Shown here piece after piece: positions 2,897 through 58,247 of a DNA stretch of 64,000 nucleotides (its first letter is position 1; every line of letters starts with the position of its first letter). The notes beneath the pieces were generated by a model. The model ran no database searches. It saw only the letters and a list, made by a program, of their open reading frames with translations, and was not told the DNA's origin. The position numbers were made by a program, and so were the translations under genes. This stretch comes from a bacterium (GTDB lineage: Bacteria; AUK180): positions 1-64,000 of the forward strand of contig JAGLGN010000027.1 of NCBI GenBank assembly GCA_023144005.1, written 5' to 3'.

Positions 2897-4336
2897 TTAA
2901 TTGCCGGGCAACATCTTGACATTCTTGAATCGCATTGGAGCTACGCCGTGTGACAGATGCATCACCTGCCCGGGCTCACCCTTGCCACAATAGAATGTTC
3001 CGTAAAATCCCCACTCTTCCGGGCCGCATATCCTGTCACATGAATTCCAGAAATCCTTTGTGATACCGAAATATGTGGGTTCCTTTACGATATGCTTGAT
3101 CTCTCCGTTCTCGATCTTCCAACCGATCTCGGTGGTGAACTGGAAATTATTCCTATTGTCGTCGATGGACCATGTTTTGGTATAGTCGAGAAGATATCCG
3201 TTTTCCGTGTCCTTGATCAGATCGGCCAAGGAGCCTTTCCCCGGTGCGATGCAGATATTGGACATTCGGATAAGAGGGAATTCCGACGCATGTGTCGCCA
3301 TCATATTTGAACTTGGCTCGAGACCTAATTCAGCTGCGGTATAACGCGATGTCTGAAGATCAACGAGCACACCGTTCTTAATGATATCCACTCTCTTTGA
3401 AGGAATGCCGTCATCGTCAACGGGATGGTAGCCGATACCTCTCTTGTCTGAGGCATCCGTGTATATATTGACAAGATCAGAGCCGTATTTGAAATTTCCC
3501 AGCATATTCTCCTTTACAAAGGTCTTGCCCGCATAGGAGATCTCCATACCGAACATTCTGTCCGCTTCCGTAGCATGGCCGACAGATTCATGTAATTGAA
3601 GGGCAAGGTGGCCGTTATTGATAATAATATCCGCCTGATCTTCTGTTACCCTCGGAGCTGTGAGAAGCTCTTTCGCCTCTTCAGCGATCTTATCGATATT
3701 ATTAATAAAATCTAATTTTTCAAGCACTTCGAAACCGCCGCGCTGCGCAGGCATATGGCCTGGAAAGGCTCTTGTCTGAAAGCCATTTTGATCGGCGGCA
3801 GCGACCATCATAGACGGCCTGGCATCATAAACGGTCGTATCGACGAGTGTGCCTTCAGTGTTTCCGTAAACCTTGTACTGTTTGTAAAAATGCGTGTGGA
3901 CGATCGAGTGTACTATTCCGTCCAACTTACCCATTTTGGAAGCGATCTCACCCAGATAGGAAACCTTTTCTTTCAATGGTATCTTGAAGGGATCCTTTAT
4001 CGGGTCGAAGTGATAACTTGCCACAATTCCATCAACGGGTTTGTACTCAATTGGACTATTTTTAAAACGTGCGCCAAGACGGGCATTTTGGACCGCTTCT
4101 TTTACGATTTTCTCGATCGACGCGGATGACAGGTCGGAAGTGGAAGCGAATCCCCATGTACCGCCTATAAGCACTCTCACTCCTATGGAAGTGGAGGCAA
4201 TCTCGCTGGCGGCGCCTTTGAGAAAGCCCCTCTCAAAGAAAATATTCTCATTGTCCGTAACAGTTACTCTCACATCACCGAATTGGACATCGGGGGCATT
4301 CAGTATATTCAGGGTTTTCTTTACTAATTCTTTCAT
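2897..4336 (-). CDS. tldD: TldD metalloprotease subunit
   Basis: 479 residues of the TldD/PmbA family. The zinc-binding HExxxH motif is intact (HESVGH, His249-His254), the mark of the catalytic TldD subunit. In E. coli, TldD and TldE form a heterodimer that trims small peptides such as the microcin B17 leader and the CcdA antitoxin. Here tldE lies immediately upstream with a 9-base gap, and the SD AGGAG precedes the ATG, so the two should be made together. No RiPP precursor or toxin-antitoxin pair is visible nearby, so the substrate is unknown. Confidence 0.93.
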   Translation of the reverse strand: MKELVKKTLNILNAPDVQFGDVRVTVTDNENIFFERGFLKGAASEIASTSIGVRVLIGGTWGFASTSDLSSASIEKIVKEAVQNARLGARFKNSPIEYKPVDGIVASYHFDPIKDPFKIPLKEKVSYLGEIASKMGKLDGIVHSIVHTHFYKQYKVYGNTEGTLVDTTVYDARPSMMVAAADQNGFQTRAFPGHMPAQRGGFEVLEKLDFINNIDKIAEEAKELLTAPRVTEDQADIIINNGHLALQLHESVGHATEADRMFGMEISYAGKTFVKENMLGNFKYGSDLVNIYTDASDKRGIGYHPVDDDGIPSKRVDIIKNGVLVDLQTSRYTAAELGLEPSSNMMATHASEFPLIRMSNICIAPGKGSLADLIKDTENGYLLDYTKTWSIDDNRNNFQFTTEIGWKIENGEIKHIVKEPTYFGITKDFWNSCDRICGPEEWGFYGTFYCGKGEPGQVMHLSHGVAPMRFKNVKMLPGN

Positions 4337-22740: not shown

Positions 22741-22931
22741 ATATTAGGGACGGTCCTTTAATTCTTTAGTATTTGGCAGGCCCCTATTTCGATTATATCT
22801 ACACTTATATGTTATATCTCAGTAATACCGAAAATTGTAACCATCCGGAAATCCATATCTCCTGCATTGTTGGGGAATCCGAATTATCACAAATTTGGAA
22901 AACTAAAGAATTAAAGCACCGTCCCTATATT
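22741..22931. mobile_element. ~190-bp element with 25-bp inverted ends (GGGACGGT type)
   Basis: Ends at 22746-22770 and 22902-22926 are inverted copies matching at 24 of 25 bases (AGGGACGGTnCTTTAATTC, then TTTAGT). The ~130-bp interior holds no gene. Such ends recall those moved by REP-associated or IS200-like Y1 transposases, but no transposase is present, so it would be non-autonomous. The right end overlaps the 3' end of the radical SAM gene and supplies its TAG stop (22927-22925). Confidence 0.65.
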
Positions 22932-30617: not shown

Positions 30618-30870
30618 GAGTTATGATTCGTAAATACGATGACAATGGAATGTTTAGATTTGAGTCAATTCCAACGAACAATGAGCGTGGCGTACCCTTG
30701 GTGGTCCGTGAGCGAAGAATGAGGAAGAAATTGACCAAAGATGACATTCCCCTCGGGCTGATACCCTTTTTCTGTCTTTACATACCGCGTTGGTATGTTG
30801 CGTTCGCTGCGCCTCCCATGCTGAACAAAATAGTATCAGCCAGTGTTCACGTCTTCATAGATTAGAGCAC
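30618..30870. mobile_element. MITE copy 1 (253 bp)
   Basis: Imperfect 31-bp terminal inverted repeats at 30618-30648 and 30840-30870, flanked on both sides by TA (30616-30617, 30871-30872) as expected for TA-targeting (IS630/Tc1-like) elements. The interior is about 80% alike to copies 2 and 3 by eye. It carries an open frame (about 80 codons) but no transposase. Its right end is 4 bases from the TTG start of the permease gene. Confidence 0.75.
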
Positions 30871-56626: not shown

Positions 56627-56642
56627 ATTAATTATCTCCGTA

Positions 56643-56913
56643 GTGTGCTGTTTCATAAATACGATGACAATGGAATGCTTAGATTTGAGTCAATTCCAAC
56701 GAACAATGAGTGCGGCGTACCCTTAGTGGTCCGTAAGCGAAGAGAGAGGAAAAAATCGACCAAAGATGACATTCCCTCCGGGCTGAATCTCTTTTGCCGT
56801 CTTCTACGTTGCTCGTTGCTTACATACCGCCGTGGGTATGCAGCGTTCCTCGCTCCTTGAATACGAAACAAAATAGCATCAGCCATTGTTACCGTCTTTA
56901 TGAAACTGTACAC
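56643..56913. mobile_element. MITE copy 2 (271 bp)
   Basis: 31-bp terminal inverted repeats at 56643-56673 (GTGTGCTGTTTCATAAATAC onward) and 56883-56913, flanked by TA on both sides (56641-56642, 56914-56915). It carries an insertion-like extra ~20 bp relative to copy 1 (CTTCTACGTTGCTCGTTGC around 56800). Its right end contains the last ten codons and stop of the epimerase-like gene. Confidence 0.8.
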
Positions 56914-57886
56914 TAGTATTATATTTTTTGATGATCTCTTTCTCTTTCGCGGCATCTAATCCCGCTGAATATTTCTTCCCCATTGTTGAAGTAATCGCCC
57001 ATTCCAATGTATCACGCACGGTTGTTTCCAGCTCTGTGAATGCCAAACCGGCATCCAATGCTTTCTTGATACTTACGGTGTCGTTAAAACCGGGGATCCA
57101 CAACGGCATTTCCACATACGGACCCAACTCTGCGTCTAAAAGGAATTTATCGGGGATCCAGGTGCCTGAATACTCAGCGGATATCGCATTTGCCGACTGT
57201 TCAATAAAATCCGACATTGAAAGAGCTGCCGCCGGGCCGGTGGCATTGAAGGTTCCGGTGAGCCCTTTCTCAGCAGAAGATACTGTCCATGCGGCTAGGT
57301 CTCTGACATCAATGAATTGTATCTGCCTTGCGGGGTCGCCGGGAAGGAGCACATCACCACCCTTATTCAATCTCATGGGCCAATAGGTGAAACGGTTTGA
57401 TGGGTCATCCGGACCTACTATCAATCCGGGACGGATATTAAGGAAGTTTTTAGGAAAACACCGCTGAACCTCTTTTTCACAAAGAACTTTCAAGCCGCCA
57501 TAGGTTTCTCCGGTGATCTTCTCGGTTTTTGTATCAGGTAATGAGATCAGCTCAGATGCTTCATCTACCGCATCCGCGGAAAGGTCGGGATATACGGATA
57601 CAGAAGAAATATATACATAAAGTGATGCGCTGTCTATTGCATCCGCTACTTCCTTGATCTGACGCGGGAAGTAACCCGAAGGATCAATAACAATATCCCA
57701 TGAGCTTCCGCGTATCGAATCATAATCGCCCTTTATACGGTCACCTTTGTAATGGATTTGGTCTTGAAACAGTTCGGGATTGGAAATTCCCCGATTGAAA
57801 AATGATACCTCATGTCCCCTTTCAAGAGCGATCTGTGCTATATGTTTTCCTAAAAATACTGTCCCGCCCAATATCAAAATATTCAT
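56879..57886 (-). CDS. NAD-dependent epimerase/dehydratase-like protein
   Basis: 335 residues, an extended-SDR fold: N-terminal NAD site ILILGGTVFLGKHIAQIA, RSxS-free catalytic region with YGGLK (Tyr-x-x-x-Lys), and RPGLIVGPDDPSNRF. The family acts on nucleotide sugars or similar substrates; the C terminus is divergent and the substrate unknown. AAGGAG precedes the ATG at 57886. The final residues VQFHKDGNNG and the stop are encoded by the inverted end of MITE copy 2, so the native C terminus was replaced or extended. MITE copy 3 begins only 16 bases upstream of the ATG. Confidence 0.8.
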   Translation of the reverse strand: MNILILGGTVFLGKHIAQIALERGHEVSFFNRGISNPELFQDQIHYKGDRIKGDYDSIRGSSWDIVIDPSGYFPRQIKEVADAIDSASLYVYISSVSVYPDLSADAVDEASELISLPDTKTEKITGETYGGLKVLCEKEVQRCFPKNFLNIRPGLIVGPDDPSNRFTYWPMRLNKGGDVLLPGDPARQIQFIDVRDLAAWTVSSAEKGLTGTFNATGPAAALSMSDFIEQSANAISAEYSGTWIPDKFLLDAELGPYVEMPLWIPGFNDTVSIKKALDAGLAFTELETTVRDTLEWAITSTMGKKYSAGLDAAKEKEIIKKYNTSVQFHKDGNNG

Positions 57887-57901: not shown

Positions 57902-58154
57902 GTGCACTATTTCGTAAATACGGTAACAATGGCTGAGGCGATTTTGTTCAGCATGGGAGACCCAGCGAGCGCAGCATACCCACGCGGTATGTAAAGACAG
58001 AAAAAGAGCCTCAGCCCGAAGGGAATATCATCTTTGGTCAATTTCTTCCTCTCGCTTCGCTGACGGACCACAAAGGGTACGATGCGCTTATTGTTCGTTG
58101 GAATTGGCTCAAATCCAAACATTCCATTGTCACAGTATTTACGAAATAGTACAC
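57902..58154. mobile_element. MITE copy 3 (253 bp, inverted orientation)
   Basis: The best-preserved ends: GTGCACTATTTCGTAAATAC at 57902 and, inverted, GTGTACTATTTCGTAAATAC at 58154, with 31-bp repeats matching at 27-28 positions. The interior is in the opposite orientation to copies 1 and 2. Flanking TA duplication is not intact here; only two bases (AA) separate it from the shorter copy on the right. Confidence 0.8.
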
Positions 58155-58156
58155 AA

Positions 58157-58247
58157 GTGTCCTATTCCATAAATGTATGCTGACACAGAATAATACGAAA
58201 AAAAGGGAAAAGTATTCCATTGTCATCGTGTCTATGAATCAGAACAC
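58157..58247. mobile_element. Deleted MITE derivative (91 bp)
   Basis: GTGTCCTATTCCATAAATGT (58157) and inverted GTGTTCTGATTCATAGACAC (58247) are diverged forms of the same 31-bp ends, with only ~29 bp between them. It is an internally deleted copy lying next to copy 3. Confidence 0.6.

Follow-up and report, generated by a model that had tools for sequence, protein, structure and literature searches.

Correia elements of Neisseria, ERIC and other bacterial MITEs are small repeats with terminal inverted repeats (TIRs), high copy numbers and many intergenic copies, and clusters of bacterial MITEs in which elements have inserted into one another are also described in PMC10969869. TIRYTs with repeat families of their own have been described as well (PMC3733652). 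The repeat family reported here is likewise small, bounded by TIRs, present in high copy number and often intergenic, a likeness to Correia and ERIC in general features. Structurally it is a MITE, being short, devoid of a transposase and dispersed in many copies with fixed-boundary TIRs, and it is restricted to one genus of poorly known bacteria. The family is apparently new and was matched to no described one in the searches made here. In kind it is an ordinary MITE; what is less ordinary is that its ends stay static although almost all the sites compared differ in their interiors, and that its arms co-vary.

The window, meaning the whole stretch of 64,000 nucleotides that was analysed (G000:C20:1-64000), belongs to a draft genome of 2.67 Mb in 38 contigs that is 96% complete (G000), and the genome of its congener (G001) is a draft metagenome assembly. 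The sequence-only reading of the window had already proposed a MITE family, and this assignment is upheld: the sequence is non-coding and measures ~271 bp, its TIRs span 31 bp, copies are numerous, the borders are rich in TA and one orthologous site is empty. The 271-bp family consensus is too short for a transposase and ends in 31-bp imperfect TIRs (GTGTTCTGATTCATAAATACGATGACAATGG ... CCATTGTTACCGTATTTATGAATCAGAACAC). All three copies in the window (Table 1) have exactly the boundaries first proposed for them, and the claims of imperfect TIRs and of TA flanks at two copies hold too, with 28/31 identical TIR positions in copy 57902, 26/31 in copy 56643 and 18/31 in copy 30618. The count of three full copies stands, but a fourth, degenerate element next to copy 57902 had been overlooked; nhmmer recognises its right TIR at E 6e-9 and its left TIR at 0.03, and its boundaries come from reading the sequence. 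Copies 30618 and 57902 lack ~18 bp near the centre of the 271-bp consensus. A minus-strand ORF at 56879-57886 (335 aa; weak oxidoreductase matches) terminates within the right-hand TIR of copy 56643, which appears to supply the last codons and the stop (overlap 56879-56913).

Table 1. Coordinates of the MITE copies and associated features in the window
Feature	Position	Strand	Remarks
MITE copy, 253-bp variant	57902..58154	- (canonical orientation on minus)	flanks AA/AA
TIR of copy 57902	57902..57932		28/31 identity to opposite end
Opposite TIR of copy 57902	58124..58154		
Canonical 271-bp MITE copy	56643..56913	+	TA either side
TA, left border of copy 56643	56641..56642		
TA, right border of copy 56643	56914..56915		
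MITE copy, 253-bp variant	30618..30870	+	TA either side; TIRs decayed (18/31)
Fourth element, degenerate, 91 bp, adjoins copy 57902	58157..58247		strong right TIR, weak left TIR

Beyond the window, ~105 MITE end sequences stand above background in the 2.67-Mb genome. BLAST of copy 57902 against its own genome gave 63 matches with E down to 5.5e-78 (self excluded), and a degenerate TIR pattern had 127 matches against 22 for a reversed-pattern control, so the copies are not a product of chance. A tighter TIR pattern matched the congener 151 times, with 0 matches for the control. The stretches examined hold 90 distinct TIR-delimited elements, 72 with the canonical interior, 6 partial and 12 with another interior, and boundaries are fixed across the 72 canonical copies, each with 31-bp TIRs. 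Searching the genome and its relatives with the element end, as the sequence-only reading had suggested, thus brought up more copies with boundaries in common, and neither an isolated set of copies nor ends that fail to coincide. The family has narrow limits: the TIR pattern had no match in G002-G006, five further genomes from the same phylum, and the family was absent from the 53 more distant genomes searched. The exact TIR core, sought in 84,980 species genomes, matched the congener MAG RS_12_30 (JAGLWT01) and gave three single matches besides, one in a Bacteroidales MAG and two in Ligilactobacillus genomes, which is about the chance expectation for the TIR pattern. The repeat had no BLAST match in a plasmid collection, and its TIR was not found in viral contigs.

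Comparison with the congener showed that the same sites often hold different interiors. Between 53.9 and 60.0 kb, the window and G001:C110 are syntenic, with 90-95% identity in most blocks, and all three window sites are occupied in G001, a result largely free of the bias that causes occupancy to be overestimated elsewhere, where G001 loci were mostly picked for carrying the TIR. Flanks of the compared sites are mostly 91-98% identical between the two genomes, and yet the interior or array differs at 10 of 11 sites (a, b, c, d, e, f, h, k, l and n), site p being the sole one with its interior conserved (98% covered). Three of these sites (h, k and n) have also lost one end or have a flank that fails to align, and the flanks of site f are repeats in their own right; the firmest differences are those at the window copies 56643 (a), 57902 (b) and 30618 (c) and at sites d, e and l. 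At site a the borders are the same, the outer parts (~150 bp on the left, ~66 bp on the right) hardly differ, and a middle of ~50 bp in G000 stands against a replacement of ~230 bp in G001. The borders of site b are also the same, but only the TIRs are kept in G001 and 0% of the interior aligns, whereas at site c the congener has an LRR form of 375 bp, that is, an extra right half. The holder of the canonical form varies, being G000 at b and G001 at d. At the unscored site o, the inner copy has shrunk to a 19-bp remnant, GTGCTCTGATCCAGAGCAC, in G001. A proposed orthology between window position ~40100 and locus L034 was dropped, as similarity ends before the element.

The alternative interiors consist of heptamer-like repeats in mosaic arrangement, with junctions that recur: ...CGTTCACTCGTGAACGA followed by the TIR is found at >10 sites, as is ...CAATTCCAACGATAAATGCAGT. 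Recurrence of these junctions at many sites in both genomes indicates that donors with the same ends exist. Both genomes are drafts and elements lie at many G001 contig ends, so that assembly error could explain part of the interior differences; repeat mis-assembly as their general cause is nevertheless quite improbable, because each swap would require a pair of false joins, falling within ~30 shared bases to either side of one site, and the alternative interiors reappear with identical junctions at roughly a dozen sites across the two genomes. A search of one paper collection on MITE interior exchange at fixed sites returned nothing relevant, which is no proof of novelty. Mosaics of heptamer-like repeats (CACTTCA, ACTTGTC, CCTCGTA, GTTCAAA and others) were also seen in intergenic DNA at loci L054, L057, L086, L110, L117 and L142, and are reminiscent of the STRRs of cyanobacteria.

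When folded, the consensus forms a single long hairpin, with -111.6 kcal/mol and z -9.4 as RNA and z -6.0 as DNA, and the two arms of a copy change together. Agreement between arms within a copy reaches 23.5 of 28 TIR columns, against 21.6 +/- 0.17 with permuted arms (0/5000 reach the observed value), and double changes occupy 76 cells of the alignment against 31.5 +/- 4.5 in shuffles (0/500). A structured RNA or regulatory hairpin under selection, in which covariation of the arms would reflect RNA pairing, could produce both this fold z-score and covariation so far above shuffles. However, nearly all the double changes fall in the TIR arms (71 of 1375 cells), with very few in the inner helices (5 of 3054), and a conserved RNA was rejected on this ground; interiors swapped for unrelated DNA at fixed sites would not readily be allowed by RNA selection, and the window holds no Rfam match, which makes this explanation very unlikely. 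A tRNA scan of the window also found nothing. Subfamilies with different TIRs account for part of the arm covariation. Both arms carry the rare variant CGTAAATAC in copy 57902 and CATAAATAC in its congener counterpart, and CCTAGATCC in L015 is a private variant common to both arms of one copy. The few private shared variants may be better explained by in-place correction of quasi-palindromes.

At many loci a full copy is surrounded by half-elements, left ones (L, up to ~175) and right ones (R, from ~178), in arrays of the forms L-LR-R, LL-LR-RR, LR-R and L-LR. In the arrays examined, site and orientation of the inner copy match those of the outer one. Since independent insertions should take both orientations, we infer that the arrays stem from one founding self-insertion, whose direct repeats would later have expanded and contracted. 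A REP-like hairpin module (GGGACAGACGAACGCC..GCGTACGACATGTCCC) recurs at ~1390-1520 in L117 and in flanks in L012, L014, L016 and L032, and several MITE copies are inserted within or beside it.

Border statistics were obtained from the 72 canonical copies of both genomes together. TA is found at the left border in 31/72, at the right border in 38/72 and at both in 13/72, while A occupies flank position -1 in 57/72 and T occupies position +1 in 61/72; TA is strongly enriched at the flanks, yet far from strict. The examination of empty sites in relatives that had been proposed for these elements gave a divided answer. A nested element of ~573 bp at G000:C35, around 10.2-10.8 kb, has an empty counterpart in G001:C40 (empty, AAAATTAATAAGCG; filled, AAAATTAATAA/GTG...CAC/TAAGCG), which is consistent with a target-site duplication readable as TA or TAA. 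For insertions into other repeat modules, on the other hand, empty and filled forms are not cleanly resolved and the border shows no clean TA duplication. A second candidate empty site (L127 5500-5620 vs L144 4510-5000) was dropped because it was not clean. Collapsed element remnants in L129 (~845-875) and L167 (~3790-3830), with GTGTACTGTTCCATAAATTGTACAC between TA and TA or with the same 19-bp sequence as the remnant at site o, could be either palindrome deletions or excision footprints.

A TA border alone cannot tell IS630, IS5-type and TIR-bearing tyrosine transposases apart. The sequence-only reading had suggested an IS630/Tc1-like partner, and the MITEs could have arisen by deletion from an insertion sequence of the IS630/Tc1-mariner kind (or an IS5-type one targeting TA), which mobilised them in trans by cut and paste and was later lost. 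The length of the TIRs, the enrichment of TA at both borders and the empty site consistent with TA fit such an origin, as do IS630 genes in the relatives G002 and G005. The partner itself found no support: neither genome with the repeat has a gene matching PF13358 (DDE_3, IS630) or PF01609 (DDE_Tnp_1, IS4/IS5-type), and among the relatives searched PF13358 is present only in G002 and G005, both of which are without the repeat. The full-length element with the same ends around a DDE transposase that this reading had called for was likewise missing from the neighbourhoods examined. The longest of the 90 TIR-delimited elements measures 458 bp, nested arrays being scored by their innermost copy, and no pair of MITE ends lies >~460 bp apart outside nested arrays in the TIR neighbourhoods examined. 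We regard an IS630/Tc1-mariner or IS5-type source as a tentative possibility.

Tyrosine transposases are the other candidates. IS200/IS605 elements classically have no TIRs, but all five Y1 (Y1_Tnp) genes of G000 are flanked by near-perfect TIRs of 25-42 bp, and in relatives the same holds for most of the genes of ~285 aa that were looked at; G001 has six Y1 matches, and many of these TIRs start with GGGGACGG or AGGGACG. This arrangement resembles the TIRtron/TIRYT as named in PMC3733652. At loci L130-L134 and L210-L224, Y1 (IS200/RAYT-like) genes of the phylum lie within such near-perfect TIRs, mostly of the GGGGACGG type, with an internal direct repeat. The window also contains a 179-bp element at 22747-22925, with TA on both sides and a TIR (GGGACGGTCCTTTAATTCTTTAGT) that nearly matches the TIR of the Y1 gene in L134 (G000:C1:22136-22468); judged by this match, it is likely a non-autonomous TIRtron derivative. 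The same place in the congener holds a different, GGGACGGT-ended element, with the outer ~10 bp in common and the inner TIR and interior different.

Mobilisation of the MITE by a TIR-bearing Y1 (HUH) tyrosine transposase, as a kind of large REPIN whose matching enzyme has been lost, would agree with the TIR-flanked Y1 genes, with the apparent non-autonomous derivative of such an enzyme at 22747-22925 and with the long hairpin of the MITE itself. The TIRs flanking the Y1 genes, of the GGGGACGG type and others, are all unrelated to that of the MITE, however, and a profile of the MITE TIR found nothing convincing around any Y1 gene examined, which leaves this origin rather unlikely. No autonomous partner was found among the DDE_3, DDE_Tnp_1 and Y1 genes of both congeners, the families to which the search was confined, or among the TIR pairs examined.

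The explanation that we favour, and consider somewhat probable, is an old burst of TA-targeting transposition followed by recombinational remodelling between fixed ends. TIRs, TA enrichment and the one empty site suggest that, before the genus diversified, its ancestor acquired the MITEs at TA-like sites through an enzyme that acts on the 31-bp TIRs; this enzyme would since have been lost or have gone undetected, and the IS630/Tc1-mariner origin is the sub-case in which it is named. The copies would then mostly have been remodelled in place, their interior being exchanged for DNA of other copies while the inverted arms were kept complementary. Recombination or gene conversion between copies with common ends could achieve this, perhaps helped by hairpin (cruciform) formation at replication. 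One nested self-insertion at a fixed site, with later gain and loss of direct repeats, may have led to the L-L-R-R arrays. A transposition burst has two points against it: transposition itself was not observed, and the search for a matching transposase found none.

A bolder and doubtful reading is that the TIR ends serve as fixed docking points, with interior exchange outpacing element movement and maintaining the family instead of transposition. The canonical hairpin, the heptamer-repeat mosaics and the half-elements would then be the short DNA cassettes exchanged in place, and the TIRtron-type site at 22747-22925 would be a second case if the docking-point reading were true. The comparison of the two congeners provides a natural set of cases in which the remodelling of palindromic repeats can be tested in bacteria with no known transposase, and it cautions that age estimates from MITE interiors can mislead.

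Set against the described systems, same-site interior replacement between sister species was found here, and the excerpted text of PMC10969869 makes no mention of it for MITEs of the Correia/ERIC type. MITEs mobilised by IS630/Tc1-mariner elements are alike in their TA-rich borders and ~31-bp TIRs, but neither genome that carries the present repeat has an IS630 transposase. REPINs and TIRYT repeat families (PMC3116915, PMC3733652) resemble it in being palindromic and non-autonomous, and G000 does encode TIR-bearing tyrosine transposases; the MITE described here differs from them by its 271-bp length, its TA-rich borders and a TIR of its own, which bears no relation to the TIRs of the Y1 genes examined.
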